Source of the DNA: Punica granatum
Lineage: Eukaryota > Streptophyta > Magnoliopsida > Myrtales > Lythraceae
Assembly (NCBI RefSeq): GCF_007655135.1
Contig: NC_045130.1
Location: 13,206,001-13,270,000, forward strand
Direction of reading: 5' to 3'
DNA: 64,000 nucleotides
Part shown: positions 85 through 60,239 of the stretch, piece after piece
Numbering within the stretch: the first letter of the stretch is position 1
How the letters are laid out: each line of letters starts with the position of its first letter
Translations under genes and position numbers: made by a program
Notes under the pieces: model-generated
The model's input: only the letters and a program-made list of their open reading frames with translations
Database searches by the model: none
Told to the model about the DNA's origin: nothing

Positions 85-208
85 CACCGGAGAGAAGACG
101 GCTGGCAGAGGCCAGTTGGAGGAGGCAGAGGAGAACGACTGAGAGCACGAAGACCCGAATTGCCAAAAACGATGGAGTAGTTGTTGTAAACGCCACAGCT
201 TTCTTCAT
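85..208 (-). CDS. g1: first exon of a small secreted peptide gene (partial)
   Basis: This is exon 1 of the gene family that recurs through the window; later exons lie beyond the left edge. The start codon is at 208-206. The exon encodes 41 codons plus one base, so the following intron is phase 1. The N-terminus begins MKKAVAFTTTTPSF and continues through a hydrophobic core (VLSVVLLCLLQLASA) to the residues SRLLSG. This is a classical secretory signal peptide with an Ala-x-Ala cleavage site (ASA before SRLL), better formed than in the sister copies. The exon is followed by a GT donor (G/GTTCGT). Its length matches g2 and g7 exactly. The family is not one I recognise. The exon is real-looking; whether the whole gene is intact cannot be judged here. 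Confidence 0.6.
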
Positions 209-330
209 CGATTCCCCTTTCCTCCTCTACCTCTCTCTCTCTCTCTCTCTCTTTCTTTGTGTGTGATATGATCGGATGGATTCAGCTTAACAGCTCTATA
301 CTAGCTCTATCGGGTTGGTGACTATTCGAT

Positions 331-339
331 GTTATTTAA
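331..339 (-). promoter_or_regulatory. TATA-like box of g1
   Basis: On the minus strand this reads TTAAATAAC, about 125 bp upstream of the g1 ATG. The same position in g2, g3, g5 and g7 holds a canonical TATATAA, so this is a weakened version. Between it and the ATG lies a (CT)11 tract at 231-252 (GA-rich in the transcript), also present in the paralogues. Confidence 0.4.
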
Positions 340-1224
340 GCCGTGATCTCGCTTGGTCATTAGTTGTTATAGGTGGAAAGCTGCGTGGATCATTTGGCTG
401 GATTATCAGTTTTCCAAGAGGTTTGGTTTATTAAGTCAATTAATTGTGATTTATTTGAAAGTGGCTATACGTAGCGACAGATAAAAAAATCAATGCCAAT
501 GCTTCAAACTGTTGACCGAAGCTGCATCATTTTCGTGGAAGCATCACGAAGGAGAAAAACTGAGGTTCCTTTTATTTTTAATTACCTTTATGCATACAAC
601 GTATGGAAGTCGACATGTTAAATAAATGTATAGGTCAATTCTCGACGACTTTGATTCTTGCTTGTGGACTCCAGAGAGGTGGATTACGAATTTGGACTGG
701 CCATGTATTAAAAGTATATCTATTAAGATATAAATACTAATATAACACTGGTGTTCGTGCGATATCCGGGCGAGTGGGAAAAGAGTCACGGACTCTCACT
801 ATTGTTGTTTTAAATTACTTTAATAAATTATTTTATTATATTATATCTTTTATTTAATCTTTGGCAAATAATTAATAAAAAGAAATATAAATACTAATAC
901 AACACTACAGTTTCGTGTGATATTCGGGAGAATGGGAAAAGATTTACGTACTCTCACGATTGTTGTCTGTTTTAAATTATTTCAATAATTTTTTATTATA
1001 TTGTATATTTTATTTAATCATTGACGAATTAATTAAATAAAGTAACTTTCGCTATAATTATGAAAATGCTAGTGTCAAGTAAGGTAATAAAGCACAGTCA
1101 TTGCATGCGGAGAATACCTTTGAACATATGATTCTATAAGACCTTATTATGTAACAGCTCTTCCATGCTTTAGCCGATAGAAAGCAAAAGAATTTTGTCC
1201 CTAGTACTTTTTTTATTAGGTGAT

Positions 1225-1684
1225 ATTGAGACACATTGTACCACATGAAAAAACTAAAAAAGAAATTCACGGATTTATAAGTGATTGAGTTGCACAACTA
1301 ATTAGCTCGAACTTTTGGATTGGAGATGAGTCAAATCGCTTATAAGTCCAATGGTGTTTTACATGGTATCGGAACAGGTTATGCTTTCGCGCGCACATGT
1401 GGGCTCACACCACGTTAAGTATAGTTCGAGGTAGCCAGATTGCACCTCATCTTAATCCGGTCCAATTGTAGCCTCATTATCAATTATTCCCCTCCTCTCG
1501 CTTGAGGTGTACGGAGAAGTCCACCTCGTGGTTAAGTCTCGAGCACGGAAGTCCAATCTCTACTCGTAGTCAGTTCTTGAGGGCGGGTGTTCAAGTCCAC
1601 ATGGCACGTGTAGGTGAAACATCAAAGAACTTTTGGATTGAAGATGGATCCAATCGTTTATAGGCCCAATGGTATTTTACGGGC
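1225..1684 (+). mobile_element. TRIM-like LTR fragment
   Basis: Compared with the equivalent stretches at about 10190 and 60970, g1's upstream region carries an insertion of about 460 bp flanked by GATAT on both sides. Two related copies of about 60 bp (around 1309-1363 and 1630-1684, each starting GAACTTTTGGATTG) flank a non-coding middle. The first copy ends in TTTTACA and is followed by TGGTATCGGAACAGG, which is close to the initiator-Met primer site TGGTATCAGAGCAGG. The second copy follows a purine-rich GAGGGCGGG stretch. This fits a TRIM or a deleted LTR element, but the two repeats align over only part of their length, so the exact ends are unsure. Confidence 0.35.
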
Positions 1685-7729: not shown

Positions 7730-9398
7730 TTAGGGGTGATGATGCCCATCTCCACGTATTGGACTTCCACCCACTCCTCCAAGATCTTCATTATAATCAT
7801 TTGGCAAGTGAAATTAGATATAAATCCCAATTAAGAAATCAAAATGATGTTATAAAGGCGCAATTGCACGTTTTAGAGAACAATCTATATAATTTTTTTT
7901 TTCTGAACAATCTATACATAAAAAGAGTGGGAAATTCATTATTGTGTTTATTGGTTTTTCATAATTTTCACTGTACCCCTCATATAAAAACTAATTCAGC
8001 TAATTTAACGTACGTGGACAATCTTGTAATCTTTATTCCAAGCTTTCAATGCATGGAAAGAATATTTCAAACAATACCTCTTAATTATCACGAAAATACT
8101 ACCCTTCAGTTTAATGGTGTCTTTTCATTAAATATGACCGTTCATTAATGCAACTAAAAACTAAATGATAGTTTTTTTTCCAATAATTCACTTTCTTTTA
8201 CAATAAAATTTTATGTTTAGAAAGCAACATTTTTCTAATTTTAACCTCATAAAAAAATTCAATTAGATATTATCCTGTATAACTTATATTTATTTTTAAT
8301 TATTTATTTTAAACTAATACTATGCAATTGTATAATGCATATGTTTAAATGAAAATTATGCTTAGGCAATTTCTTTTATTTAAGTTACTTGCAATACATC
8401 ACATATGTTATATCATGTTTAGATTTTACTGTATATATCTCAAACAACGTTAAAATATTAAATTTATTGAACATATTGGATCTATAGTTTTAATATAACC
8501 AATTTCAAGTTTTAGAATCAATTCGTGTATTTTATGGGTGAAACTGTCAACTAACTTCTCCTTAAGTTCAACCAGTCTTATTGGATCTAACTATACTTGT
8601 GAAACTAACAGATATCGATATAATAAATTGATATGCTTCAATGCTTCCTTAATTTATGAATAATATATGAGAATTTACTATAATTTACAACATCTTATAA
8701 TAACTGATTAACATTATTGTATTTCTTAACAAGCTGTTAATCAAATTAAGCTAAAAACTTAATTTTCCGTATGTCATGGAAGTGAAATTACATCTCTTTA
8801 ACAATCGAGAAAACTATCTTACACTAATTTATATAGATAATACATGACATTGTATAATTGATTTTATCAATTGATTTTTTTCTTAATCTATCTAACTATA
8901 TAATTTTCTATATTCTCAATTTGTTGATGTGCTCTCACGCGTAACGCATGTGAATTATACTGGTTCTGGTCCAAAATTGGGAGACAAGACTAGCTTACTT
9001 TTTTTGGGTGAATAGAGACTAGCATACTTAACTGCGTGCAACTGCTGGACCAGCTAGATACGGGAGAACTCCATTTCCGTGCACATCTTCTATGGAAACA
9101 TCATTAATTTCCGTCAGGAACAGATAATTAAAAGATGTTACTGAAATTGAAAAGAATAATTAAAAGACAATCGTGGGGCTTATAACCACCCATGTAAAGC
9201 TAAAATATTCAGTCTGTCATTTTGAATCGATAAATGTCCATCTGAAAATCAACGAAAAGTTGGAGGAGACGAACCACCGGAGAGAAGACGGCTGGTAAAT
9301 GCCAGTTGGAGGAGGCAGAGGAGAACGACTGAGAGCATGAAGATGCGAAAGGCCAAAAACGATGGAATAGCAGTCGTAAATACCACAGCTTTCTTCAT
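7730..9398 (-). CDS. g2: three-exon gene for a small secreted peptide (78 aa)
   Basis: Complete family member. Exons: 9398-9275 (124 nt), 9089-9033 (57 nt), 7785-7730 (56 nt with TAA). Introns are 185 and 1247 nt, both GT-AG and both phase 1. Exon 1 gives a signal peptide (MKKAVVFTTAIPSF, then a Leu/Val-rich core) ending near SRLLSG. Exon 2 encodes EDVHGNGVLPYLAGPAVAR. Exon 3 encodes NLGGVGGSPIRGDGHHHP and stops. The predicted mature part is about 40 aa, has no cysteine, and is rich in Gly, Pro and His at the C-terminus. Twelve nt after the stop is another good donor (CAG/GTACTC), with an acceptor at TCTGCAG/GC (about 7573), so the 3' UTR seems spliced. The P-x-x-G-x-G-H end recalls CEP/PIP signalling peptides, but I cannot assign it. 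Conserved exon lengths across copies are the main support. Confidence 0.65.
8133..8825. other. AT-rich segment present only in copy A (intron 2 of g2)
   Basis: Copy B joins directly from TTCATTAAATA to CTAATTTATAT, so this stretch of about 690 bp was either inserted in A or lost from B. It has no terminal repeats I can see, no flanking duplication and no coding capacity. It lies inside intron 2 of g2 and accounts for most of the difference in that intron's length from g7. Confidence 0.55.
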
Positions 9399-9508
9399 CG
9401 ATTCCCCTTTCCTCCTCTACCTCTCTCTCTTTCTTTGTGTATGATATGATCGGATGGATTCGACTTAACAGCTCTATACTAGCTCTATTGGGTTGGTGAC
9501 TATTCGAT

Positions 9509-9517
9509 GTTATATAG
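9509..9517 (-). promoter_or_regulatory. TATA box of g2
   Basis: CTATATAAC on the minus strand, about 111 bp upstream of the g2 ATG. The intervening presumed 5' leader is GA-rich. The same block is conserved in g3, g5, g6 and g7. Confidence 0.55.
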
Positions 9518-9789
9518 GCCGTGATATCGCCTGGTCATTAGTTGTTATAGGTGGAAAGCTGCGTGGATCATCTGGCTGGATTATCAGTTTTCCAAGAGGT
9601 TTGGTTTATTAAGTCAATTAATTGTGATTTATTTGAAAGTGGCTATACGCTAGCGACAGATAAAAAATCAATGCCAATGCTTCAAAATCTTGACCGGGTC
9701 TGCATCATTTTCGTGGAAGCATCACGGAGGAGAAAAACTGAGGTTCCTTTTATTTTTAATTACCTTCATGCATGTTAACATGTCGACTT

Positions 9790-12216: not shown

Positions 12217-13460
12217 TTAAGTTGGCGCATGTATGTCAATAGTGCCCAACTTGCGAAGAAGAGCCTGAAACCGATCCTGTCCTAGAGCCTTTGTAAATAT
12301 GTCTGCGAGGTGGTGGCTACTCGACAAGTACCGTGTGATAATGTGGCCCTTCTTGAGATGATCACGAACGAAATGACAGTCTATTTCTATGTGCTTCGTT
12401 CGCTTGTGGAAGACGGGATTGGCTACAATGTATATTGCTGCTTGGTTATCAGAATGTAGCTCTGTAGGTTGGGACTGATCCACACCAAGCGAGCACAGAA
12501 GTCCTCGAAGCCAAACCAACTTGGCTGTTGGGATGGCCATAGAATGATACTCCGCTTCAGCTGAGGATCTACGAACAGTGGTCTGCTTCTTGGCCTTCCA
12601 AGAGATGGGGCAGCCACCTAGTGTCACAGAGTAGCCCATAATGGATTGTCGAGTCATTGGACACTCTACCCATTCCGCATCACAATACGCCCGTAGCTGT
12701 AGGTCACCTGAGTGTGCGAACAAGATTCCTTGCCCGGACTCTGCTTGAGGTACTTAAGAACTCCCAGAGCAGCTTCCCAATGCAGTTGTTTCGGTGATTG
12801 CAAGAACTGCGAGAGGATATTCACCGAGTAACGTAACTCTGGTCGTGTAATAGTCAAAAAAATCAACCGACTTATAAAACGCCGATAGCGTTCCGGTTCA
12901 AGGAACGGTTTACCGGAATCCTCCCGAAGTCGATGCTGCTGCTCCATCAGTAATAAGGATGGATTGTTGCCAAGCTTTCCACATTCGAATAAAATATCCA
13001 TAGTGTATTTCATTTGAGACAGGAAAATCTCATTGGGCTTTCGAGCTACCTCAATCCCTAGGAAATATTTCAACAACCTAAGGTCCTTGATACGAAATTG
13101 TTATGCCAAATAATCCTTGAAGGCCGAGCAAGCATCTGAATTATTACTTGCCAATATCATGTCGTCAACATAGATCAACACAACGAATGAGATATCTCCA
13201 TGAAATTAAGTAAACAACTAATGATCTGCCTCCGATTGTTGAAAGCCATATGCAATAAAAGCGGAAGCAAACTTGACATAACAATTGCGGGAGGCTTGCC
13301 GAAGTCCTTAGAGCAATTTATGTAGATGACAAACTTGACCACTAATATTCGATTGAAAACCCAATGGCAGCTACATGTACACCTCCTCATCGAGCTCTCC
13401 ATGCAGGTAAGCGTTATGTACATCAAGCTGGTGAAGCTCCTAATCACGAGCAAGAGAGAT
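12217..13460 (-). pseudogene. pol: Ty1/copia pol fragment: end of reverse transcriptase plus RNase H
   Basis: The RNase H part (12723-12217) is recognisable from YCDAEW, the SSAEAEYHSMA segment, SDNQAA and KRTKHIEIDCHFVRD, followed by DIFTKALG near the end. Catalytic Asp and Glu positions are kept. Upstream, KYFLGIEVAR and TRPELRYSVNILSQF mark the end of the RT, and YVDDM (about 13170) is the RT active-site box. The frame is broken: there is a stop within the segment after the YVDDM box (near 13103), a frame change near 12700, and degraded sequence above about 13300. Integrase and gag are absent. This is a dead fragment, duplicated at 63084-64000. Confidence 0.8.
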
Positions 13461-17912: not shown

Positions 17913-19871
17913 TTAATGTTGTGGGCCATGTCCCCCATCTCCATGAAATGGACCTCCACCCACATTTCCTAGATCTTCATTATAATCATTTGGCAAGTGA
18001 AATTTAGATATATATCACAATTGAGAAATCAAAATCATGCTACATACCAAGATGCAATTGGACTAATTTGGATAAAAGAGCTTGCATAGGTTTTTGTGAA
18101 CTAATTAATCTCCAAAAGTGCCACCCCATATATCTCTTTCGGCTAGCTTAATTCACGTCCTAATGTGAAGAAATTATCCAACTGAAGACAAAAAACTAGA
18201 AAGATGCAAGTTTCTTTTGGTGAATCAAAATAGGAAAGTATCCCTTTTATTAGATTTATTGAACATATATTTTTAAATCATTTCTCATTATTTTTATAAA
18301 TCAAGATATGTCCAAATTCTCGAAGTAAATCATCAGATTGGTCGTTCAGTTGCGTAAAAAGAGGAATTATAATCAGATCATATACGCGTTGATTTAGTTA
18401 GTTGCAATCTAATTTCATGGAATTATCCAAGTTGGTATTTATTTATTTATTTACTTATATGAACTAATATTTTTTTAGTTTCACAAACACCGATGGATCC
18501 ATTAAAAATTTACAGCTTCAGCAATCCCTCTGATTCAATTCTAAAACTGGTAACTGATTATATTGAACCTATATATATTATAAGTTTGATCAATTTAATA
18601 ATTTAAAATAGTATGAGATATACACAATAAAACCTGAATATATAATTTAGCTATAAATTTTGTGAATGTTAGTTAGAATGATGCAGGCACAAGTTTAAAA
18701 GGAATTTGATGGATAATGATGTGCAAAAGGTCTTTCTATTATGATAATTTCACTCTTAAAAGTACTACAATTTCATCCACTTTTTGTAGTTTTGTCACCA
18801 TGACAAATTGTCATGGTAGAATTCCATAATATATATATATATATATATGGAGGAAAATCATTGGGTAGGAAAAGTTTACGTTGAGAAGCCAATTTGCCAA
18901 TGTCCCACACTAGACAAGTACGACAAAATGAATGGATAAGGGGAATTGGGTTTCACCACTTCTCTGCTTAAACTTTTGGATTTATAATGTCGATGCATGC
19001 AACAAACTTTTTGTTTTCCTTTTGTTTTCTTTGTTATATAGCTAGAGTTTGTTTGTGTATAGAATAGAAGAGGGAGATGAGTATACTTAACTGCGTGCGA
19101 CTGCTTGGCCAGCTGTCGAAGGAAGAAATCTGTGCCCGTACACATCTTCTGTAAAACATCACCAATCTCCGTTGATAACAAATATAAAAGATATTACTGA
19201 TATTTAAGATAGAATAATTAGAAGATATTCATGACACTTATTTACTGATATTTTGATCTCATCCATCCATTATTTACATATTTTACCATAGTTTTCTAAT
19301 CTTTTACATTTTTTATTTCATAATTTTCGCCTACAATATTATACCACTGTTCTCGAATCTTGCCGCCACATGTACCAATCACATTCCGCCATGTTACCCA
19401 TCATCGTCACATTACCAAATTGGACCATAAAAATCGATTTTTTTAAAAAAAAAAACATGTGTAATATAAGCCGGGCATGTTAGTGGCACGTCATCGACAT
19501 GTAAGCGGATTTTAATTTACATACACATCGACACGTCAATGACACGCCATCGACACGTAAACGACCTTCTAATTTTATTGTACTTTACATGTAACCCGAT
19601 GAATTTGCGATGCCATTGAAAGGTTTATGGACAAAAATATTGTCTTTAATACTAAAAGGACTAGAAAAAAAAAAACTAGCATTCCACCATTGTTGAATTT
19701 GCCAATGAACAATAGAACAATTAGAAGATATTCACGCTTATAACGACCCAACCCATGTTAGCTCAATGTTTTGATATGTAGTTTTGAATCGGAATGTTGA
19801 TATAAAAATCAAGGAAAAGTTAGTTCTCTTCCATATTTGCAAAATTCATTTCAGTAATCCCTTGTATGTGT

Positions 19872-19926
<55 letters not shown>

Positions 19927-20064
19927 AGAATAACCCCTATCGAGAAGACTACGGGCGCCAAAAGCCAGCGGGGGGAGGTACAGTAGAATGATAGCGAGAA
20001 CCGTAAAGATCCGAATAGCCACAAACAACGGAGTTGCAGTCGTAAATGTTGCAGCTTTCTTCAT
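17913..20064 (-). CDS. g3: three-exon gene for a small secreted peptide (82 aa)
   Basis: Complete lineage II member. Exons: 20064-19935 (130 nt), 19148-19092 (57 nt), 17974-17913 (62 nt with TAA). Introns are 786 and 1117 nt, GT-AG, phase 1. Exon 1 gives MKKAATFTTATPLF, a hydrophobic core (VLAIILLYLPPLAFG) and ARSLLDR. Exon 2 encodes EDVYGHRFLPSTAGQAVAR, and exon 3 NLGNVGGGPFHGDGGHGPQH. Against g2, exon 1 is two codons longer, exon 2 has equal length, and exon 3 is two codons longer before the stop. Just after the stop the alignment shifts by 2 nt, so frame is kept only up to the stop. Intron 1 holds a (GA)25 tract next to the donor and a MITE. A donor 14 nt after the stop and the acceptor TTTTTTGCAG suggest the same 3' UTR intron. 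No cysteine in the mature part; function unknown. Confidence 0.65.
19251..19697. mobile_element. TIR MITE in intron 1 of g3 (5'-truncated)
   Basis: Matches the fuller copies at 33631-34127 and 55422-55921 (TTCTACAATGG ... CCATTGTAGAA) but starts inside, at TTTTGATCTC. Non-coding. All three direct copies sit at the same place in intron 1, so the insertion predates duplication of the unit. Confidence 0.5.
19873..19922. repeat. (AG)25 microsatellite beside the exon 1 donor of g3
   Basis: Perfect dinucleotide tract of 50 bp lying about 13 bp inside intron 1. On the minus strand it would read Ser-Leu repeats if intron 1 were retained, which could mislead gene predictors into a one-exon model. In g5 the same tract is only about 9 repeats. 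Confidence 0.9.
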
Positions 20065-20184
20065 CGATCCTTCCTTCTCCTCCTCTACCTCTCTATATCT
20101 CTCTTTCTCTCTGCGTGTGATACGATCAGTTGGATTCGACTTACAGCTCTATACTAGCTCTACGGGGTTTGTGATGATTCGATA

Positions 20185-20192
20185 TTATATAA
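20185..20192 (-). promoter_or_regulatory. TATA box of g3
   Basis: TTATATAA on the minus strand, about 120 bp upstream of the g3 ATG, within a block conserved in every family member of this window. Confidence 0.55.
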
Positions 20193-20452
20193 GCTGGGAT
20201 CTGGCTTGGTCAATAATTTTTATAGGTTGAAAGCTGCGTGGATCATCTGGCTAGATAATCAGTGGGCCAAGAGGTTTGGTTCATGAAGTCAAATTAATTG
20301 AATATGATATTTGAAAGTCGCTATAAGCGACGGGCAAAATTTAATGCAATATGCTTCAAAGTCTTTAGCGTGGCTTCAATTATCTTCGTGGAAGCATCAC
20401 GAGAAGATAAAATTTCCGAGGTTCCTTTGATTTTTAATTTGCTTATTCATAC

Positions 20453-21641: not shown

Positions 21642-21644
21642 TAC

Positions 21645-25437: not shown

Positions 25438-25494
25438 TGCGTGCGACTGCTTGGCCAGCTAAGGACGGAAAAGGTCCTTGCAGATGCACATCTT
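25438..25494 (-). pseudogene. g4: orphan second exon of the secreted peptide family
   Basis: Exactly 57 nt, between an acceptor (CATGCAG/AA) and a donor (CGCA/GTTACGTA). It encodes EDVHLQGPFPSLAGQAVAR in the family phase. Sequence from about 25025 to 25437 matches intron 2 of g3, but homology stops before exon 3. On the upstream side a retrotransposon begins at 25663, and no signal-peptide exon is found beyond it up to 32.8 kb. The exon itself is undamaged, while the gene appears decapitated and tailless. Confidence 0.6.
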
Positions 25495-32922: not shown

Positions 32923-34462
32923 TCAATGGCGTGACGGCACTGCGTAGTACACATCTTCTGTAAATCATCACCAATCTCCGTTGTGAACAAATAGGAAAGA
33001 AATAATGTTTGGCCCTCGACCTTTTCTAAACCTATTTTTTTTGTTCAATTCTATCTCTAACGTTACATAATTTGTTCATATTAGTCCTACCATTAATTTT
33101 TTTCTTCAAAAAACTATTTTTCCATCCATAATATTTTTAAAATATATTATTTCATTGCATATTAATTTTAAGATTTCTTTTAAAAAAAAGGAAATTGGGA
33201 GATCCCAGTTCGACTGGATCTCTTGACTCCGGAGGAAGGAGGCCTCGTCGACGGCCACTACTCCCTCTCCGAGGTCACCTAGGACCTCTGCCTCTGTCGC
33301 TGGCAGGGCCTTCTTCCTTCGGAATCGGGAGATCCTAGCCAAATTGGGATCTCTCGATTACCTTTTTTTTTCTTTTTATTTTAATTTTTTGGTATTATTG
33401 AAATTAATTTGTAATAAAATAACATATTTTTAAAGTATTTTGTATGAAAAATAGTTTTTTGACGGAAAAATTAACAATAGGATTAAAACAAACAAATTAT
33501 GTAACGTTTAGGGATAGAATTGAACGAAAATACAGGTTTTGGAGGATTAAAAAAACGAAAAGGTGGAGGACCAAAAATAGCTTTTCCCTTAGTAAATATT
33601 GAATGAAAGATATATTACCAATATTAAAAGTTCTACAATGGAACCACAACTTGTGTTCCATTATCGAACATTAATTTCAGCCATTAAATCCTACCAACTT
33701 TTGATCTCATCAATTCATTATTTACATATTTTACCATAGTATTTCTAGTCTTTACATTTTTATTTTACAATTTTCGGTATAATATTATACCACTGTTCTC
33801 GAATCTTTCCGCCACATGTACCAATCACATTTTGTCACGTCACCCATCATCGTCACGTCACCAAAGTGGACCATAAAAATCAATTTTTAAAGAAAACCGG
33901 TCTAATATAAGCCGGACATGTTAGTGACACGTCATCGACATGTAAGCGGATTTTAATTTACATAAACATCAATGACACGCCATCGACACGTAAACGGCCC
34001 TCCAATTTTATTGTAATTTACATGTGGCCCGATGAATTTGTGACGCTATTGAAAGGTCTATGGGTCAAGAAGTTGTCTTTAATATTAAAATGACTAGAAA
34101 AAAAACTAGTGTTCCACCATTGTAGAATTTGCCAATGAACAATAGAACAATTAGAAGATATTCACGCTTATAACGACCCAACCCATGTTAGCTCAATGTT
34201 TTGATATGTAGTTTTGAATCGGAATGTTGATGTAAAAATCAAGGAAAAGTTAGTTCTCTTCCATATTTGCAAAATTAATTTCAGTAATCGCCTGTATGTG
34301 TTAGAGAGAGAGAGAGAGAGATGAAAAATAACCCTTATCGAGAAGACGACGGGCGCCACAAGCCAGCGGGGGGAGGTACAGTAGAATGATAGCGAGAACC
34401 GTAAAGATCCGAATAGCCACAAACAACGGAGTTGCAGTCGTGAATGTTGCAGCTTTCTCCAT
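32923..34462 (-). CDS. g5: shortened secreted peptide gene (54 aa predicted)
   Basis: Exon 1 (34462-34333, 130 nt) is intact and starts MEKAATFTTATPLF, with the same hydrophobic core as g3 and the end ARRLLDK. Intron 1 (1375 nt) carries two transposons. The acceptor TTTACAG/AA is kept, but exon 2 (32957-32923) diverges after EDVYY to read AVPSRH and a stop. g6 has the same length and stop (EDVYYTELSRH), so the change is ancestral to both. No third exon follows. It may encode a secreted 11-residue variant tail or may be a pseudogene; the intact signal exon and TATA box favour expression, the lost exon 3 argues against family function. Confidence 0.4.
32994..33588. mobile_element. Long-TIR (MULE-like) element in intron 1 of g5
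   Basis: Inverted arms of about 180 bp: the left starts GGAAAGAAATAATG, and the right complement starts GGGAAAAGCTATTTTTGG. The arms share AATTCTATC, CGTTACATAATTTGTT and AAACTATTTTTC. The loop of about 170 bp is GC-rich and contains GGGAGATCCCAGTTCG and GGGAGATCCTAGCC. Flanking 9-mers (GAACAAATA and TAGTAAATA) match at 6 of 9 positions. It is absent from g3 and present in g6, which dates it between those duplications. Confidence 0.6.
33631..34127. mobile_element. TIR MITE in intron 1 of g5
   Basis: Starts TTCTACAATGGAACC and ends GGTTCCACC-like sequence at CCATTGTAGAA. It is 497 bp and non-coding, with inner motifs GACACGTCATCGACATG and GACACGCCATCGACACG as near repeats. Confidence 0.55.
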
Positions 34463-34582
34463 CGATCCTTCCTTCTCCTCCTCTACCTCTCTATATCTCT
34501 CTTTCTCTCTGCGTGTGATACGATCAATTGGATTCGACTTACAGCTCTATACTAGCTCTACCGGGTTTGTGATGAATCGATG

Positions 34583-34590
34583 TTATATAA
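34583..34590 (-). promoter_or_regulatory. TATA box of g5
   Basis: TTATATAA on the minus strand about 120 bp upstream of the g5 ATG, identical in setting to g3. Confidence 0.5.
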
Positions 34591-36182: not shown

Positions 36183-36185
36183 CAC

Positions 36186-43180: not shown

Positions 43181-43194
43181 ACTTGCCCCTCTTT
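43181..43194 (-). promoter_or_regulatory. Polypurine tract of the giant-LTR element
   Basis: AAAGAGGGGCAAGT on the minus strand, directly abutting TGTCAGCA of the 3' LTR; the site where plus-strand DNA synthesis would be primed. Confidence 0.65.
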
Positions 43195-43419
43195 GGTTGC
43201 GTGCTCGATTAGAGGAGGTAGCCAAAGATCATGAAAAATAACCCTTTTTGGTCCCGGCGACCGCTTCGACCTCACTCGCGATGGCCACTGGTTCCTGAGC
43301 TTTGAATGCGTGGGAAGGAATTAAGCATACGTACCTAAATGTATCGAATAGATGTCAGAATCAGCGAATAAGAAGAAAGGGAGTCAGATTTAAAGCAATA
43401 AATTGTGGGTTCATGGAAA

Positions 43420-47700: not shown

Positions 47701-49234
47701 GGAAGTGTTCATTGTCCTAATTGTGGTCGTTCCAGGTCTAAGTTGCCTTCTTGTCGGTTATTTCCTGCAATGGGAAGAAGAACGGCAATCAAGGAACAAG
47801 AACTATTCGTAATTTGAATGCAACAGTGTAGGGGAGCGAACTAGCCTGGTAGACGTCATGCAAGCACACTGAGAGACATGTACAAGGTGTGTCGAGGATG
47901 CGTGCATGGGCAAGGTAGGGGTGTGCTCGCACGACGCGGAAATGGCACACTGTTGTGCTGATGGAAGCACTTGTAGCATGGAGGGACGTGTGCTCAACCA
48001 TGTAATGATGTAATCGATTGCGCGGGATTAATGGGGAGTTAGTGTTGCTTGGATGGTTGGCCCTTGAGCTACTAATCGTCTCGCCGTGGAGGAAGGGTGA
48101 GGACCACGAGAGGTCCACCTGCAAAGGCGGTCACAACTTTGTCTACCGTGTGGTAGTGTTAATTATCGTGTAAAACAATAAATGGATAGGATGCATGCAG
48201 TGCGTGAGTTTTCAAAAGCTAATGTTGTCGTTCACATTGACTCGAAAAGTTCAAAGTACAATGCAAATTTTGTAAAATAGAGCCTTAAGCTGATTTACCA
48301 CCACACTCGGGGTTTGAGCGAGCGCGGCCTCGGAAAGCACCGGGTCTAGGCGAGGGCCTTGCGAAGACATCTATCCTAGAGTGCATGCGTGGGTCTTCAT
48401 GAGGCCCTTTCCTAGACCTCTCCAGGGCGACGTTCGCTCAAGCGAGCTCCTGACCGCATCTCTGTATCTTAGCACGGGTTTGGGAGAGCTCCCTCTGAGG
48501 TGGTTGGCCGGCGAGTTCTTCGTCTCTCAGCGACCTCTCGGTGATCGAACCTAGTGTTGATGAGGTCGATCATGTTGTCCCGGAATATAATCCATTCGCC
48601 TTCTGTGGCGGGTCGGTGAGGTCCTCGTGTGTTGGTGGGCTCTGTCGAGGCGCGGGCAGGAGGCCAAGCAAGGCGTCCCTTACCAAGACGATAAGAAAAT
48701 CTGCTTAGGACTTCTCAATGTGAACGACATCCTAGTGTATTTTGAAAACTGCATGATGCATATGTGCAGAGAAAAGTAAATGCCCACGGCTTAGTACAAA
48801 TTACAAGGTACATCGCTCTTGAAATAGAAAAGACTCAAGTGGCACGCAGGCCGACTCGATGGACTGTTGTCGGCGTCGGGTTGAAGGCTTGCATGGAGGC
48901 ATAGCACGATGCATGGTTCGGTGCTACAAGGACTGTGCTATCTATGGATGGGGGCTCCCGACTCAAGGGTGTGAATTCCTTGAAATCGAACGAGGATCTT
49001 TGGGGGCCAGTTCGGTGGCATAGCCGACTCGATCCGTTCCCTTACTCGGAACCTCTGACTAACCTAGCTTCCTATTTTGGCGCCCGTGGGATTTCGGACA
49101 AGGCACCTAAAGCTAGCATGATATGTAATGCATGCGTGAAATAAATGTGCGTAAGTCGATAAGCGGTAAACGACGGAAAGCAGTAAATAAACAAGCAAGC
49201 AAGCAAACGGGATTGAGCCCGAACCCTCTAGATG
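44723..49234. other. Non-coding centre of the giant-LTR element
   Basis: Searched on both strands for zinc knuckle, protease DSG, RT YxDD, RNase H and integrase HHCC/DDE signatures; none found. Moderately GC-rich, with short open frames (for example 45423-45794 and 47789-48124, minus strand) of no recognisable content. One short repeat (CAACCGGGGATGCCCCAGCGTACG and a near copy) is at about 46635-46715. It could hold packaging signals or a captured host fragment, but nothing shows it. Confidence 0.6.
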
Positions 49235-49252
49235 TCCCCTGTGGAGTCGCCA
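49235..49252 (-). promoter_or_regulatory. Primer binding site of the giant-LTR element
   Basis: TGGCGACTCCACAGGGGA on the minus strand, 3 nt inside the 5' LTR end. It resembles the primer sites of Tat/Ogre elements (an Arg-tRNA type as I recall), not the initiator-Met type used by the CRM-like element. Confidence 0.7.
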
Positions 49253-49255
49253 AGC

Positions 49256-52200
49256 TGTGCGCACCCGAATTTAATCTCGTCGGGGCACGCATGCGCGAAG
49301 CCTATGCAATGCGGCTTAGGAGTGTCCACCTTCCAGGGGACGCGCGACGGACACGTGTGAGAAGGAGTCGCCAATTATTGTTTGCGACCCGTAGGTAGAG
49401 GGCCGTTGAGTCGCCCGGGTCTAGGGGTACGGGGTACACCTAAATGCTAAGGCAATGGTCATGCGGAGCCGAAAATTCTGAATTCGGGGGTTCCATTACG
49501 TGCGGGCCTATATCCCGCACGCCCTTTCCGTACTCTAGTTTGCTAGGCTTGCCGTTTTGTTTATTTACCGTGTGATTTAGGGTTACACTTGACTCACCCG
49601 TTTTGACACCGTAAAGTCGATGAATTGATCAAGTTGGGCCAAGGATCCGAAAGATGAGTAGGCGTATGCGTCGAGGAATCGGCTCACTATCTTAGCGTTA
49701 CAGTTCATTGAACCGTGATGGTCGATTCCCTGCGCGAACCGAAGCCGCAAGTATTCGAGCTTACTCATCTCTTGGTAACAATAGACCGACCTGACCGGTT
49801 CGACACTCGGACCTCTCTCTCGCTGATCGGGAATCCTTACAAATGAATGAGTGAGTGTACAGATAAAATCCTCACAATGTTCTCTCGAATAATTACAAAG
49901 TGTAACTGAATAAGTAAATGGATCCCAATCGGTTTGCATTAGACCAATATTCCGCTCCGGCTCACCGTGTGTTTTGAATAACCGATAAATAAATTAAGGC
50001 AACGCGGGCTCAAAGAGCCGGGGGTCGGGTCCAATCAAACCGACGATTTGTAGGAGAACCGATTGGTTCCCACTGTAATCGTTGGACCGATCGAGCTCCC
50101 GGGTGATATCTAAACACGTTTCACACATCTAATCCAAATTGCCTTCCACATAGGCCATATTTGGAGTGTGATGGTGACTCGAGGCTAGATCCCATTCCGC
50201 ACTCGGGTTGCACGCACTCAGTGAGTTAGGAGGCATTGGACCTCGTGTTCGGTGATTTGGGGCGTTGGAAAACAGAAGAAAACTGACAAAACTGATGGAA
50301 AACAGATAACAACTGACAAACGTAGGTGAATACAGACAAGTTGTGTATTAAGTCGAATGTACGTGATTTAATCAGTTATCGACTGGGGTTGATTTGCAAA
50401 CAATGTGTCTAGCCTAGGCAAACATAGATAGTGGGCTAAAGTATGACTCTAAGCCGATTACATGTGTGAATTTGTTTTAGAATCCTGATTCAGTGAGATG
50501 ACACTGCGATTTTACCGAATTAACCAAACTCGTATCTTGACTCTAGATTGGAATCTAATATTCCACCTACCCATTATCTAATGTTCGTTTAAGTCGAGTG
50601 CATGATTAATGCGGTTCTTCGTATTTTGTAACTGAAATAAAATGTTCACCACCGAATCTACGATAGGAAGATAGAAACACCGAAAGTGAACGAAATGGGC
50701 CGTGCGAATGAAACTCGTACCCGAACGGGTTGCCCTTTCTCGCCCGTAGATCGAGGTGTTTCCAACTCCCTAACGCCTAGGGTATCGGTGAATCACGAAA
50801 TGACGATTATGCCCTTTGATAATAAAACGTGTGATGTTCGTGTACAAATTGAAGATCGTGTGACACGAAGAAGTCCAGGAAGGACTCGCGTGTCCCGACT
50901 CGAGCAGCCTCAAATCGGGCCCGGACTCGAGTCATAGCACGCGAGTTTCGCTAGACGTTGATTCTATTCGTGTTACACGTCTTGGTGTTTTGAAATTGTG
51001 GGCCTATTAAGGAAAAGGGCATTCTTGCCGTTCCGTGAGCCATCGACGCGCTTACGAATTAATAATCAATTTATCCAATTATTTAGTCCAAGATGATTTA
51101 ATTAACCGAATGATACGTCCCGTTTCTCCCATTTGTGGAATGGTTTAATGATTGAGACCTCAAACCTCAATTGTTATGGATCAATGAAACGTTTGTTCGA
51201 TATTAACTTATCTAGCATACGAATTAACATGAAACCAACGATTAAATGAAAATGGTGATTACAATCAATTCCAAGAATCGGTTTTGACCGTTTCTTGCAT
51301 GCATAAAACATCAAAGACAATGACAACGTACATTTTTTTACATAGCCGATGCCGCCATGATTTTGAGAACGCAATTAAACATACAAACAAGCACAAACAC
51401 GATATTTAGAGGAATCGATAAAACGACACCGACTCATGGGAGTGAAAAATGTAAAAACTCGGGAAACGACTTGAATCGGGGAAAGGAGGCCATCCATGGC
51501 CCGAGGATGCCAAGAGGGGCTCTCGGCCACCTCCCTTGGGGTGAGGCCGAGAGGCTCCTTTGGCTTGCCCGATCCAACGATGTCTCCTCGACTCCGATTC
51601 AAGCTATTTCCCGACATGCTAGCACTATATACGATGATGACATGCATAATACAATGTAAAAACACAAAAAAAACATAAACTTGCATGCGAATCGGTCATG
51701 GACCGCCTTATCGCCCCACAAACGCAAGGAAAACGTAAAAGGCCTAACTTCTCTGAGTTGAGAATGATTATACCTAGCCCCGGGATGCGGGAAAAGTCGA
51801 GGAAAGCCAGAAAAAGGGCTTGGGAAGTCGGTTCTACCCCCGGGAATGAACAGACTCGAATCAATGAAGTCGAGTCGGCGGTAGACCCGACTGGCAGTCC
51901 GGTTTGTCGAGGCTGTACCGGTTGATCAGGATAGCATTTTTGCGCGGGGCCAGTTTCGTTGGATTCCCAAGAGATTAATGATCGCGTCTGCAGTGGTTTC
52001 GGGAGGAGAGCACGCGTAGATTTTCTGGAAATCAAAAACAAAGTCGGGTCAGTAAAAAAAAAAGACAGACCCAGTCGGGTCAAAACAGACCCGACTGGCA
52101 CCCGATGAAGAAATGGCTCCACAGGAGGCTCCCGGTGGTCGTTTGATGCGAGGTCGGTGGCATTGGACTCCTAACTGACTGGTGATAGGTGGCTCGTAGC

Positions 52201-54600
52201 AAGATTCAGCTCGAGCTGACCTGTACGTTCCTGCAAATTTTAGGTTAAAAAAGACGACCAGAGGATCAAACCCGACTGACACCCCGATGTAGAAACGACT
52301 CTACGAGAGGCTCCCGGTGGTCTTTTGGTGCAAGATCGGTGGCATTGGACTCCTAACTGACTGAGAATCATGCTTGAGGTGGTTTCATGAGGATTGGACA
52401 TGTATATTTTCTGTATGCTCCTGCAAAGTTCCGGTCAGAAAAGAAAATCAGAGGGACAGACCCGACTGGGCTGTTTGGGTAGAATCGGCTGCAAAGGGGG
52501 GCTCCGGGTGTTGCACCGAGCTGGCTCGAGTTCCTCCGATTCCTAAGGGACTGCTCTTGGTGTTCATGACCAGTTTGTGGCGTGCGCACGACTGATTTCA
52601 ACCGGAAATGCAAAAAGAATCCGATAAAGACTATGAAAACCCGGTAAAGAAAAAGATTGGAAAAGGGGCGGTCTTGCGCGGTTGAGCGGCTCTCGGCACG
52701 TGACCACCTCGTCACAGGGGAGAGTGAGGGTCATGAGGAACCCTTAGAAAGTGATGGCACGACTCTCCATGGTCGTGGGAAGGAGTGGCGTCGAAGAAGC
52801 CGGGAAAGCCATGAAACCCTATGGAACTCGGTTCTGGACAGAGCTGGTTCGACAAGCTGGAAGCTTCAAATCGCAAAACTAACACAGAAAATGGACTCGG
52901 GAGGTCGAATACATATGGAATATGAAGTTTGGTCGAGCTTGCTTAAGTCGAGAAGGAAGAACTCGCTTAGAAACTGGGAAAACGCCCTAGGGACCCGAAT
53001 CTGGACAGAGCTGGAACGATATGCTGGGAGCTTCAAATGAAAAATCTAAGGTCGAAAATGGACTTAGGAGGTCGAAAACATGTGGGATATGAAGTTTTGT
53101 CAAGTTTGGATCGGCTTGGATGGCGGTCGCCGGAAAACGGTTGAGTTTTGCAGCATTTTCGGCCTTGGACGGGGCTGTGCTTGGGCTGAACGACCAGGGC
53201 TGATTGCTGGAGTTTGAGAGGGTTTTGGAGGTTCTCCTAGAGTGAGAAAGCTTGAGAGAGAATGGAAATTGAGTTGTGATTAAGTTAATGACCCGAGAGG
53301 CTTATATAAGAAGGCTAATGATGCAAAATTAGTGAAATTAAGTGTGATTTTGGGGGGGTTTATGGGGCTGCCGAATTTTTGAAGAGGGGTTAGAATGGGA
53401 AATGTCACTTAGAGTATGGGGGAAGCAAGAGGAGAAGTGATGGGAAGTGATGGATGGGATATATGTGTAAGAAGGTGTAAGAGATATTTGAATTTGTGTG
53501 GTGGAGGGAGCTTCTTGAGTTTGAGCCACCGAATTGAGCCGTGGCTTAGGGATTGAGCCATGGCTTGGGGTTGAGCCGTGGCTTGGGGTTGAGCCGCGGC
53601 TTGGAGGTTTGGCTTGGCTGAGCTGTGGGTCCCATTTGACTAAGAGAAAAGTCGGGAAAAGCTCGGGACTTGATTGAACGCGCGCCCGATCTCCGATGTC
53701 CGATTAATTTATAGATTTGGAATGCTTGAACGAAGAGGATTTGAATGAGCCTAATATCGCCATACGTTGCGTGAACGAGTGTTCGGGCGACTCGGCGCCT
53801 CGAGAGTCGGTTTTGTCTCGTCTGGGTGTTCAGAGTGGAATTAACCGTCTCTGTTCTCCGATTGCTCCTTTGTGCGTTGTAGTGCTTGTCTCGATGAGCT
53901 TTTTGCCTCGTGAGGGATCATTGGCTCATCGTCCCCGACCGAAGACCGTTGGCCCGGGAAGACCTAGAGACTTGTGACCGGGGCTTTCTGAGTGTTCCCT
54001 GAATGTCTCGAGGTGTTCGGGGATCGTTGTGATCTCTGTTTTCCATGAATGTGCCCCGAAGATTTACCGGGAGGCGTTTGCTACCACTGAAACGTCACTC
54101 GGGGAGCCCCGTAGAGTTCCGAAAGGTCGTCTGAAACTTGTTCCACGACCCCGGTGGTCCCTGGGTGCCTGTAGGTCCGTTTTGGAGTGCCGTTTACTTG
54201 TTAGTGGAGCGGGCCCCGGGAGCCCTGTCAGAAAAGGCGTCTGTGAGAGATCGGGGGTTTCCCGGCCTAAGCGGTATGCCCCCGAAACGCGCCTGGACGT
54301 GTCGTTGGTCACTTTGGCACAGAGAGGGATTTTTAGAGTCCCATATTGGGCACCTTTCGGTGCTTCGATGACTCGGTGATGAATAGTGCCACTGTGCCGG
54401 CTCTGTCGTTTTCGGAATTCCTCGTTTATCTGTTCTTCTGACGGCTCTTCTCTGCTTTTCTCGGTGGACCATGCTTTTCTCCCGCAATCCATGACTCTGT
54501 GCCCGCATGTTTGCCTCCGGTTTCCCGATTGTGAGTAGTGTCCCGAGCTTTGGTCGGAAGTCCTCCGTTGGAACCGGTGGACCAAAATGGTGTGCTGACA
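49256..54600 (-). mobile_element. 5' LTR of the giant-LTR element (5345 bp)
   Basis: Parallel to 37784-43180. It has four copies, not three, of the 18-bp TGAGCCGTGGCTTGGGGT unit (about 53525-53605) and a deletion of about 65 bp near 50270 between short matching sequences. In the first 580 aligned bases I count about 35 differences from the other LTR; elsewhere the two look closer. Confidence 0.8.
53301..53310 (-). promoter_or_regulatory. TATA box in the 5' LTR of the giant-LTR element
   Basis: CTTATATAAG, identical to 41899-41908. As the 5' LTR on the minus strand, this copy would drive genomic RNA of the element. Confidence 0.45.
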
Positions 54601-54789
54601 ATATGTAATAAAGCTTAATTAGCTAACTATATGCTCGTCCAACTGTTAAAAAAGAAATGGTCATAGAAATTATATTCAAGTCAACCATGTAGACTGAATT
54701 TATAAAATTCGACTTCGTTCAATGTCGTGACAGCTCTGTGTAATACACATCTTCTGTAAAACATCACCAATCTCCGTTGTGAACAAATA

Positions 54790-55380
54790 GGAAAGAAAAA
54801 AATTTTAGCCCTAAACCTTTTCTAAACATATTTTCCATTCAATTTTTATCTCAAACATTACATAATTTGTTCATATTAGTCCTACCGTTATATTTTCCAT
54901 CAAAAATATTTTTCCATCCAAAATATTTTTAAAATATCTTATTTCATTGCATATTAATTTTAAGATTAGAATTTAAAAAAAAATTGGGAGATCCTAGTTC
55001 GGCTGGATCTCTTGATTACGAGGGAAGGAGGCCTCGTCAATGGCCACCACTACCTCTTCGAGGTCGCCTAGGACATTTGCCTCTGCCGTTGGCAGGGCCT
55101 TCTTCCTCCGGAATCGGGAGATCCTAGCAGAATTGGGATCTCTCGATTACCTTTTTTTTTCTTTTTTTGTATTTTAAAAATTAATTTGTAATAAAATAAC
55201 ATTTTTAAAAGTATTTTGGACAAAAAATAGCTTCTTTTTTTATAGAAAAATTAATGGTAGGATTAAAACAAACAAATTATGTAACGTTTAGGATATAATT
55301 TTGTGAAAATATAGGTTTTCGATGATAAAAGAAAACAAAGTTAGGTGGAGGACCAAAAATAGCTTTTCCCCTAATAAATT
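54790..55380. mobile_element. Long-TIR (MULE-like) element in intron 1 of g6
   Basis: Same position, arms and GC-rich loop as 32994-33588; diverged by substitutions and indels. Inherited with the unit. Confidence 0.6.
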
Positions 55381-55421
55381 TTGAAATGAAAGATATATTA
55401 GCGATATTAAAAAATGGTAGA

Positions 55422-55921
55422 TTTTACAATGGAACCACAATTTGTATTTTATTATCGAACATTAATTTCAACTATTAGATCCTACCAATTTTTTTATCTC
55501 ATTCATCCATTATTACATATTTTACCATAGTATTTCTAGTCCTTTACATTTTCATTTCACAATTTTTTCCTACAATACTATATCACTGTTCTCGAATCTT
55601 ATCACCACATGTACCAATTATATTTCGCCACGTCACCCATCATCGTCACGTTACCAAACTGGACCATAAAAATCGTATATTAAAGAAAACTGGTCTAATA
55701 TAAGCTGGGCATGTTAGTTATACGTCAACGACATGTAAGCGGGTTTTAATTTACATATACATCAATGACACGCTATCGACACGTAAATGACTCTCCAATT
55801 TTATTGTACTTTACATGTGGCCCGATGAATTTGTGACGCCATTGAAATGTCTATGAGTCAAAACGTTGTCTTTAATATTAAAAAGACTAGAAAAAAAATT
55901 AGCGTTCCACCATTGTTGAAT
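55422..55921. mobile_element. TIR MITE in intron 1 of g6
   Basis: Same position and termini as the copy at 33631-34127, with TTTTACAATGG and CCATTGTTGAA ends. Inherited with the unit. Confidence 0.55.
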
Positions 55922-56254
55922 TTACCAATGAAAAATAGAACAATTAGAAGAAATTCAGGCTTTTAACGACCCAACCAATGTTAGCTCAACGATTTGATAT
56001 GTCATTTCGAATCGGAATGTTGATATAAAAATCAAGGAAAAGTTAGTTCTCTTCCATATTTGCAAAATTAATTTCAGTAATTGTGTGTATGTGTTGGAGG
56101 GAGAGAGAGAGAGAGACTACCCACATTCATCGATCCTTCCTTCTCCTCCTCTACCTCTCTATTTCTCTCTTTCTCTCTGCTTGTGATAAGATCAGTTGGA
56201 TTCGACTTACAGCTCTATACTAGCTCTACTGGCCGGGTTTGTGATGATTCGATG

Positions 56255-57766: not shown

Positions 57767-58228
57767 TACGACGTATGGCAGTGGAAAAAGACATTTAAAA
57801 CTACCGAATCAATTCTATATGTTTGCTCCGTAAAAAAATTCGGTCCTATAAGTTTGAAAAAGACATTTTTGATCATAAAAATTTGCTTTCGATTAAAATA
57901 TGCTCCTATAAGTTTTGAAAAAGAAAGCCATTTTTTGTCATATAAGTCATGAAATAGACCAAAATTGTCCTGCGAATAAAACGGATAGGACTAATGCACT
58001 TTTAAAACTTAGAGGATCAAAATTGACCGAATGCTAAATTTATAGGACCAAAGATGTTTTTTTTCTTATTTTTAATTACCCAATTGATCATTTATTCCCT
58101 TCTTTATGATATGTGCAAGGGAATAAAGTTGATGATTTTTCCTTCCACTTGATGCACGTGCTGTTCCCAGTAAAGAAGAAGAATAACGTACACAGTACAA
58201 TGTCTTTCCCTCGGTGTTTTACTTGAAA

Positions 58229-58354
58229 ATGGAAAATGTCGAAACACCCGAGAGCATTTTTAGTACAAAAATACTTTATCTTAATTACGATACTCTTCCT
58301 CCGGTTTCTACTAAAAAAGTATTCGTTAGTTATCGACCAGTATTTGGCACACAG
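58229..58354 (+). CDS. Exon-like open segment, copy B (unrecognised)
   Basis: Counterpart of 6640-6765 with equal length (42 codons, starting MENVETPESIF) and a consensus donor CAG/GTAAGT. If not spliced, the frame continues 18 codons further to a TAG at 58411. About 60 bp present after the donor in copy A are missing here. No other exons were found, so the gene, if any, is incomplete or elsewhere. Confidence 0.25.
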
Positions 58355-59261
58355 GTAAGTGATGATTATGCATGGAATGTCCATCCGGATTTTATTTTCT
58401 TGGTGCATTAGGATATTTTTGTACAATAATAGCATGTCATATCTCTTTGCTAGGCTAGATTTTTATTTTCCATATATCTTGAGGAATTTTCCTTCTCCCA
58501 CAAGCTTTTAACCTGTACATATTACGTTGAGGAGGTAATGAATGAGATAGCTTTTCCAGCTCAAACGATTATTGACAGATTGGGTAGTACATCCAATAAA
58601 CTCCAAAACTCGAGCTTTTGAAATGGAAATATGCCCAACCGTTTCGTGAAATTGTTTTTTTGAAACTTGATGCTTCAAAGCTAGTATTATCATTGAATTG
58701 ACTTGTTAAATAACAGCTACAATCGTTTAGCAAATAAATTACTGGTATGAGAATATGTGGACAGCTGCTTAAATAAGCATATGCTTGTTTGAACCGGCGG
58801 GTTGGGGATGATTTGTCACTGTTCAATACTAAAGACAACTTGTTATTTTGTATTGCACTTTATATTATACAAAATGGTGAGAAATTATTTGTAAGCTCCT
58901 TACATGTAGAATCGAGAACATAAGAACTACGAATTTCTCGGATGTCACACTTATTGCATGATCTTAGAACTACAATTGTGTAAAAAGCGTCGTAAACATC
59001 ATCTGGCGAGACAAAGCATAATACTTTAACTTCGTGATATATGTTCTTATTACTAGCTTTGGGGGCATAGTTGACATTGAACACGTACGACATGGGGCCT
59101 GCAGAGCCAAAAATAGCACATATGATGCTCATAAGTACGTAATAGCTTAATTTTAATTCCCTAGCTAAACTTTCCTATCTACACGCAAAAATATACTAGC
59201 ACGTACGCCTTAATTATAGGGGGAAAAAAAAGAGAGAGAGAGAGAGTACCTGGTTGGAGCT

Positions 59262-60239
59262 TTAGGGGTGATGATGCCCATCTCCACGTATTGGACTTCC
59301 ACCCACTCCTCCAAGATCTTCATTATAATCATTTGGCAAGTGAAATTAGATATAAATCCCAATTAAGAAATCAAAATGATGTTATAAAGGCGCAATTGCA
59401 CGTTTTAGAGAACAATCTATATAATTTTTTTGCTGAACAATCTATACATAAAAAGAGTGGGAAATTCATTATTGTGTTTATTGGTTTTTCATAGTTTTTA
59501 TTGTACCCCTCATATAAAAACTAATTCAGCTAATTTAACGTACGTGGACAATCTTGTAATCTTTATTCCAAGCTTTCAATGCATGGAAAGAATATTTCAA
59601 ACAATACCTCTTAATTATCACGAAAATATTACCCTTCAGTTTAATGATGTCTTTTCATTAAATACTAATTTATATAAATAATACATGATATTGTATAATT
59701 GATTTTTATCAATTGATTTTTTTCTTAATCTATCTAACTATATAATTTTCTATATTCTCAACAAAAGGACGTGCTCTCACGTGTAACGCATGTGAATTAT
59801 ACTGGCACAGGTCCAAAATTGGGAGACTAGACTAGCTTACTTTTTTGGGTGAATAGAGACTAGCATACTTAACTGCGTGCGACTGCTGGACCAGCTAGAT
59901 ACGGTAGACCTCCATTTCCGTGCACATCTTCTATGGAAACATCATTAATCTCCGTCAGGAACAGATAATTAAAAGATGTTTATGAAATTGAAAAGAATAA
60001 TTAAGGGACATTCGTGGGGCTTATAACCACCCATGTAAAGCTAAAATCTTCAGTCTGTCCTTTTGAATCGATAAATGTCCATCTAAAAATCAACAAAAAG
60101 TTGGAGGAGACGAACCACCGGAGAGAAGACGGCTGGTAAATGCCAGTTGGAGGAGGCAGAGGAGAACGACTGAGAGCATGAAGATGCGAAAGGCCAAAAA
60201 CGATGGAATAGTAGTCGTAAATACCACAGCTTTCTTCAT
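59262..60239 (-). CDS. g7: three-exon gene for a small secreted peptide (78 aa)
   Basis: Complete, and the closest sister of g2. Exons: 60239-60116 (124 nt), 59930-59874 (57 nt), 59317-59262 (56 nt with TAA). Introns are 185 and 556 nt, GT-AG, phase 1. The signal exon differs from g2 by Ala to Thr at codon 10; exon 2 encodes EDVHGNGGLPYLAGPAVAR (Val to Gly at one site); exon 3 is identical to g2 (NLGGVGGSPIRGDGHHHP). The 3' UTR donor and acceptor seen in g2 are also kept. No frame damage despite about 690 bp lost from intron 2, which suggests the coding part has been maintained. Function unknown. Confidence 0.65.

Follow-up and report, generated by a model that had tools for sequence, protein, structure and literature searches.

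A tandem cluster of candidate secreted-peptide genes with very short exons in pomegranate

Known peptide families and the pomegranate locus

Among the small secreted peptides of plants, the SCOOP family of Brassicaceae offers an instructive architectural counterpart to the locus described here. Published accounts describe 14 Arabidopsis PROSCOOP genes of two or three exons that encode precursors of 72-117 amino acids (aa) without cysteine, lie in tandem clusters with transposon vestiges and are partly unannotated (PMC6382344), and they name SCOOP peptides as ligands of MIK2 (PMC8448819). SCOOPs are family-restricted secreted peptides that proved to be potent immune signals. Here, we describe a 64,000-nucleotide stretch of the Punica granatum (pomegranate) genome (contig NC_045130.1, positions 13,206,001 to 13,270,000), the whole of which we refer to as the window, that appears to hold part of a tandem cluster of small secreted-peptide genes. 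Seven units (g1 to g7) lie on its minus strand. A previous sequence-only reading, whose observations are confirmed in part, had credited all seven with the same three exons. This was not borne out: only g2, g3 and g7 contain all three, since g1 is cut by the window end and g4, g5 and g6 are relics.

On balance, we consider this to be a real protein-coding family. Joining the three exons yields open frames of 78, 82 and 78 residues in g2, g3 and g7, respectively, and a search with the joined g2 protein retrieved the P. granatum record CDL15_Pgr028798 (P0001), whose match spans 100% of the query, end to end, at 83% identity (E 1.6e-32). A profile search added two more Punica records, P0002 and P0003 (E 3.9e-29 and 1.7e-17); the three records, CDL15_Pgr028795, 796 and 798, are all named hypothetical proteins. 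With P0002 and P0003 included in the profile, a 66-aa hypothetical protein of Trapa incisa (SAY87_000408, P0005) was matched at E 1.9e-9, in a search that scored the best 7983 candidates by shared words. Trapa and Punica both belong to Lythraceae. The part of the Trapa protein beyond the signal peptide aligns with each of the six Punica peptides at scores of 63-78, which none of 2000 shuffles reached. Relatives came only from Punica and Trapa, plus one 52-aa record (P0004) that was excluded from the mature-part test and the motif counts because it ends soon after exon 1; the remaining seven proteins are g2, g3, g7, P0001, P0002, P0003 and P0005. Restriction to Lythraceae is provisional, as relatives were judged from one protein database. 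The reading that we find moderately probable is that the cluster encodes processed secreted signal peptides, so far known only from Lythraceae and SCOOP-like in architecture, not in sequence.

The sequence-only reading had also called these genes small, secreted, three-exon, undescribed and easily missed, an interpretation that the searches support in part. The three-exon, secreted design agrees with P0001, with the two further Punica records and with the Trapa record. A literature search on the name Pgr028798 found no paper, a light test of absence from print, but three members were already public as hypothetical proteins, and the family was therefore not wholly overlooked. The ease with which such genes escape notice holds for g2, g3 and g7 themselves: these copies look intact, their exons are very short, and none is represented by its own protein among the matches in the database searched. 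It does not hold for the three relatives already deposited.

The locus resembles the PROSCOOP/SCOOP system in its small signal-peptide precursors without cysteine, its two or three exons, its tandem arrays and its transposon remnants, as well as in being family-restricted with some members missed in annotation (PMC6382344, PMC8448819). It differs in occurring in another plant family, no sequence relation was found, and the SxS motif is present in none of the seven post-signal parts. The likeness is one of architecture and not of membership. The CLV3/CLE40 branch of the CLE family likewise has three exons and two introns, a signal peptide and a C-terminal candidate peptide (PMC10436580, PMC3871822). 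Unlike CLE peptides, the proteins described here have no central GP pair, and the Trapa protein has no corresponding tail. Against the CLE consensus, the 12-residue CLE motif was not found; the tail SPxRGDGxH[HN] fits 5 of 10 constrained positions, the most reached, in five of the seven proteins. A CLE-like reading of this tail (P...D..H[HN]) was rejected, as 347-831 of 5000 shuffles equaled it in the four proteins tested, which is chance level.

PIP/PIPL, IDA/IDL and CEP precursors are also short and secreted, with an Arg soon past the signal peptide and a C-terminal part containing Gly and His. The S(G/A/V)PS core of IDA/IDL and PIP/PIPL was found in none of the seven proteins, and those genes are intronless, whereas the g2, g3 and g7 models have two introns. 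GDGH is present in g2 and g7; a PIP-like GxGH reading was rejected because only these two carry the pattern, away from the C terminus, and a C-terminal GxGH occurs in none of the seven. The same is true of the C-terminal SPG(I/V)GH of CEP and of the Asp-Tyr sulfation site of PSY, no DY being found in any of the seven. Pfam gave no match above the gathering score in P0001, g3 or g2, with two sub-threshold matches in g3 (E 0.25 and 2.8), and a PDB profile search gave only weak matches (best E 0.23). While the kind of gene family is familiar in plants, none of the known families against which the peptides were tested gave a match; they constitute a new family within a well-known kind.

Gene models, splice sites and coding evidence

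In g2, exon 1 (9275..9398, 124 nucleotides [nt]) encodes the predicted signal peptide MKKAVVFTTAIPSFLAFRIFMLSVVLLCLLQLAFTSRLLSG, with a 14-residue hydropathy peak of 2.76; exon 2 (9033..9089, 57 nt) encodes EDVHGNGVLPYLAGPAVAR, residues that recur in P0001; and exon 3 (7730..7785, 56 nt including the stop) encodes NLGGVGGSPIRGDGHHHP. The exons of g3 lie at 19935..20064 (130 nt), 19092..19148 (57 nt, EDVYGHRFLPSTAGQAVAR) and 17913..17974 (62 nt including the stop, NLGNVGGGPFHGDGGHGPQH). Those of g7, a recent duplicate of g2, lie at 60116..60239 (124 nt), 59874..59930 (57 nt, EDVHGNGGLPYLAGPAVAR) and 59262..59317 (56 nt including the stop), the last having the same sequence as exon 3 of g2. Much of the exon architecture proposed in the sequence-only reading was recovered independently. 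Exon 1 measures 124 nt in g1, g2 and g7 or 130 nt in g3 and g5, starting with ATG and followed by GT in each case; exon 2 is exactly 57 nt in g2, g3, g4 and g7, and the three exon 2 peptides quoted earlier were reproduced; exon 3 is short; and the junctions of g2, g3 and g7 are in phase 1. The four introns listed for g2 and g3 (9275/9089, 9033/7785, 19935/19148 and 19092/17974) begin with GT and end with AG. Length changes between g2 and g3 comprise whole codons (3 and 3 nt in exon 1, 6 nt in exon 3), and the first indel past the stop, at 2 nt, breaks the frame as had been described.

Splice sites were scored with an approximate matrix. In g2, g3 and g7, respectively, the 97, 63 and 97 bases leading up to acceptor 2 contain no AG, so that this site is the first one reached; g2 and g7 also have CTAAT, a branch-like site, 32 bases before it (the pattern was not found in g3). 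For acceptor 1, the corresponding AG-free stretches are 49, 16 and 17 bases long, and CTGAC is present in g2 and g7 but not in g3. At the exon 1 donor of g2, two in-frame options 3 nt apart score 5.6 and 6.1. The sequence-only reading chose the second, and P0001 fits the first: compared with the g2 model, it lacks a single Gly where exons 1 and 2 meet, as splicing 3 nt earlier would produce (SRLLS joined to EDV). The corresponding donor in g3, at the position proposed earlier, scores 5.0 and is the sole GT of comparable score (next, 1.8). Downstream, the residues of P0001, a protein record only, are consistent with the g2 exon 2 and exon 3 junctions.

Donor 2 is a weak point of the three-exon model. 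This site (GCA/GTTAAG, with the slash at the junction) scores 0.9 in g2, g3 and g7, below the median of 1.4 for GT dinucleotides in the window, and a GT five bases farther on outscores it (TAA/GTATG, 3.7 in g2 and g7; TAA/GTATAC, 1.3 in g3). A further GT lies 18 bases upstream and scores 3.5 in g2 and g7. If intron 2 were spliced at the GT five bases on, or retained, the protein would end in AVARS and a stop, and exon 3 would become 3' untranslated sequence; the two isoforms could also coexist. Along with the higher score of the alternative donor, this shorter product is favored by the AGT TAA stop, intact in g2, g3 and g7, and by nonsynonymous divergence (dN) that exceeds synonymous divergence (dS) in exon 3 between g2 and g3. 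Against it, the exon 3 frame is kept between g2 and g3 across the 6-nt indel, and amino acid changes in this exon number 6 versus 8.6 expected (222 of 5000 simulations as low). Moreover, all four records that reach AVAR (three from Punica, one from Trapa) run on into LG, and g4, admittedly a relic, reads TAC where the stop would stand. We favor the long form because the four public relatives reaching this point (P0001, P0002, P0003 and P0005) continue long, and we regard a predominantly short product as doubtful, if still deserving of serious attention. We also considered and rejected another reading frame for g2 exon 3 (MKILEEWVEVQYVEMGI...), which is open in g2 but meets an in-frame TAG at the homologous place in g3.

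We next consider whether the joined frame of the long form bears the mark of selection. Between g2 and g3, we observed 30 amino acid differences versus 38.1 under neutral simulation, with 23 of 5000 simulations as low (26 of 5000 in the reverse direction) and 7 of 5000 both as low and free of stops (10 of 5000 in reverse); dN/dS is 0.57. All three exon indels between these units are whole codons (3, 3 and 6 nt), versus 2 of 15 internal non-coding indels that are multiples of three. The probability of this split by chance is about 0.012, calculated by hand on aligned stretches of equal length, a procedure that can itself create indels; the 6-nt exon 3 indel is internal in one alignment and placed at the end by another aligner.

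Several observations weigh against strong coding constraint. Taken exon by exon, the g2-g3 simulations give only a weak signal (261, 1066 and 222 of 5000 for exons 1, 2 and 3), and those for exon 1 are not significant for g1-g2 (2053 of 5000) or g1-g3 (482 of 5000). By the Nei-Gojobori method, dN exceeds dS in exon 3 of g2-g3 (0.33 versus 0.29) and in exon 2 of g3-g4 (0.29 versus 0.24), and dN/dS is 1.53, on five changes, in exon 1 of g3-g5; these exon-wise counts oppose strong constraint. Identity between g2 and g3 is 0.72, 0.74 and 0.73 in exons 1-3, compared with 0.78 over the 360 bases that precede the ATG, 0.73 at the downstream end of intron 1 (70 bases) and 0.69 across 110 bases past the stop. 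Only the start of intron 2 is clearly lower, at 0.43 over 100 bases, and this drop directly beyond exon 2 counts in favor of a coding family. As conservation in the exons does not surpass that in the promoter, DNA conservation by itself is no proof of coding. The Trapa comparison is also uneven: for the part after AVAR alone, shuffles reached the observed score in 19 (g2), 14 (g7), 458 (g3), 78 (P0001), 12 (P0002) and 706 (P0003) of 2000 trials, so that the similarity in this part is significant against some copies only. The public records, in turn, may be ab initio models.

These points would be accommodated if most or all copies were pseudogenes or a non-coding transcript, with a frame inherited from a recent common gene. 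Such a decaying cluster would agree with the three of seven units that are plainly broken, with exon DNA no more conserved than the promoter, with the weak donors and with the weak exon-by-exon constraint. We judge it improbable, as it sits poorly with three intact units and their public relatives, a core conserved in another genus, g2-g3 amino acid changes below the neutral expectation and a well-conserved promoter. The promoter and leader (9399..9758 in g2, minus strand, with TATATAA and a purine-rich leader; 20065-20424 in g3) equal or exceed exon 1 in identity, at 96% versus 89% for g1-g2 and 78% versus 72% for g2-g3, which suggests shared regulation or fast-changing coding sequence. Separately, the last 60 bases of intron 2 (7786-7845 versus 17975-18034) are 0.95 identical between g2 and g3, next to an exon 3 with 0.73.

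Precursors, conserved core and candidate function

The precursors measure 77-82 aa in g2, g7, g3, P0001 and P0002 and 66 aa in P0003 and P0005, all below the roughly 120 aa expected of this kind of gene. An N-terminal signal peptide is indicated by hydropathy peaks of 2.76-3.14 in the five long proteins, all falling between residues 15 and 34, and by the structure model of P0001 (mean predicted local distance difference test score [pLDDT] 61.6, predicted template modeling score [pTM] 0.31). The model has a confident N-terminal signal helix; from residue 41 on, pLDDT is about 48, with a low-confidence helix at residues 50-60. The predicted signal peptide spans about 35 residues and begins with MKKA (absent from the shorter record P0003), and 40-odd residues follow. 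These contain no cysteine in any of the seven proteins (g2, g3, g7, P0001, P0002, P0003 and P0005), in agreement with the sequence-only reading. Its further suggestion, a processed peptide signal rather than a defensin, is compatible with the lack of cysteine and with a low-confidence, mostly unstructured part past the signal peptide, which leave the function itself to be drawn from analogy. Directly past the signal peptide, R-L-L or R-x-L is found in six of the seven proteins, with HFL at this place in P0003; such sites would presumably fit subtilase-type cutting.

The motif G-x-AVAR-x-LG is invariant in all seven full proteins, and P-x-x-GDG is present in all six Punica proteins but not in that of Trapa. 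By these counts, the core that intron 2 interrupts (core peptide, SLAGQAVARNLGGVGG) is conserved most widely, while the GDG tail is found here in Punica only.

These features lead us to propose the following model. Its open frames, homologs, duplications and decayed copies come from computation; splicing, secretion, cleavage and receptor signaling are steps that we infer. An intact gene would give an mRNA with three coding exons and, from it, a precursor of about 80 residues. The signal peptide encoded by exon 1 would direct the precursor to the secretory pathway and be removed directly before S-R-L-L or its equivalent, releasing outside the cell a largely unstructured remainder of about 40 residues without cysteine. 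This remainder would be trimmed, outside the cell or in the secretory path, most likely by subtilase-type proteases, and the product could serve as a short signal outside the cell by way of the conserved S-L-x-G-[QP]-A-V-A-R-[NS]-L-G, whose codons span the exon 2/3 junction; the Gly/Asp/His tail behind this core appears to change faster. The signaling role is assigned by analogy, with SCOOP as the precedent.

A bolder version would make the family a Lythraceae-specific set of phytocytokines with the epitope G-[QP]-AVAR-[NS]-LG and, by implication, a lineage-specific receptor pairing of its own, in which the choice between two 5' splice sites, separated by five bases where exon 2 ends, would decide whether the full peptide or one cut short within the epitope (ending in AVARS) is made. 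This we consider unlikely. Alternatively, the peptides may not be receptor ligands but directly acting defense peptides, either antimicrobial or metal-binding through their histidines. They are small and predicted to be secreted, copy number has turned over, there are four His past residue 35 in g2, g7 and g3, and basic residues (K+R) outnumber acidic ones (D+E) past residue 35 in P0002 (4 versus 2) and P0003 (5 versus 1). Charge is balanced, in contrast, in g2 and g7 (3 and 3) and in g3 (4 and 4), and nearly so in P0001 (4 and 3) and Trapa (4 and 5). This mostly balanced charge disfavors a strongly cationic antimicrobial peptide, least so for P0003. Moreover, the proteins lack cysteine and any confident fold past the signal peptide, and the Trapa protein has no His past residue 35. 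We therefore hold out little expectation of a direct defense role and retain processed signaling peptides as the favored reading. A second tandemly duplicated family with a short conserved core, unrelated to SCOOPs and belonging to the lineage of pomegranate, would offer a good case for examining how such ligands originate, one open to direct testing with synthetic core peptides.

Incomplete units and history of the cluster

The four remaining units record duplication and decay, both shown computationally in the window. Exon 1 of g1 (85..208, 124 nt) matches P0001 (Pgr028798) with 97.5% identity over 40 aa, the single difference being R in the window and W in the record; the remainder of g1 lies beyond the window edge. 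The sole exon of g4 is exon 2 (25438..25494, 57 nt, EDVHLQGPFPSLAGQAVAR), whose nearest record is P0002 (80% over 20 aa); exons 1 and 3 of g4 were not found, and its similarity to g3 ends at 25029, short of exon 3. In g5, exon 1 (34333..34462, 130 nt) is 96% identical to that of g3, and exon 2 is broken (32923..32957), with EDVY followed by unrelated residues and a stop (EDVYYAVPSRH). Exon 1 of g6 is reduced to a relic (56126..56130) by a loss directly after the ATG, although promoter and leader are partly retained, and its exon 2 (54719..54753, EDVYYTELSRH and a stop) shares its break with g5. Intron 1 of both g5 and g6 also carries a self-complementary insert with a GC-rich center (33028-33539 and 54828-55312), an inverted repeat of about 500 bp with arms 69-71% identical.

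When the family proteins were searched against the translated window (E up to 1), no match outside g1-g7 was better than E 0.13. A tRNA scan of the window found none, and no Rfam match in the window reached the gathering score. At E up to 0.1, five Rfam matches, all sub-gathering, were taken as chance; four of them (mir-2363 twice, mir-186 and MIR399) fall at 35895-36005, a self-inverted repeat.

The units fall into two kinds of duplicated block. The first comprises g1, g2 and g7, with stretches 86-98% identical (e.g., 8823-9773 versus 59664-60618 at 95%). The second comprises g3, g5 and g6 (e.g., 19251-20465 versus 33699-34863 at 89%; 20588-23247 versus 35122-37790 at 94%; 32804-34321 versus 54600-56114 at 87%). 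The family has grown by local duplication; some of its copies are broken, and retrotransposons are interspersed among them. Transposons occupy much of the remaining sequence. A Gypsy-type retrotransposon (25663-30790, minus strand) with gag, reverse transcriptase and RNase H matches lies directly upstream of g4 exon 2, and its paired ends (25663-26011 and 30434-30782) are 92% identical. A large element of long terminal repeat (LTR) type spans 37789-54601, with direct ends of about 5.4 kb that are 95-96% identical and a 37-bp tandem array inside (43417-44723); no Pfam match was found in the seven frames tested. Large retrotransposon derivatives have been reported as expanded in pomegranate (PMC5999313), and this element seems to resemble them. 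In the g7 block, a single LTR-like insert (63487-63935), 86% identical to 25663-26114, is absent at the matching place of the g2 block (about 12615-12619). A fragment at 12666-13100 matches RVT_2, a reverse transcriptase family of Copia type, below threshold (E 0.00055).

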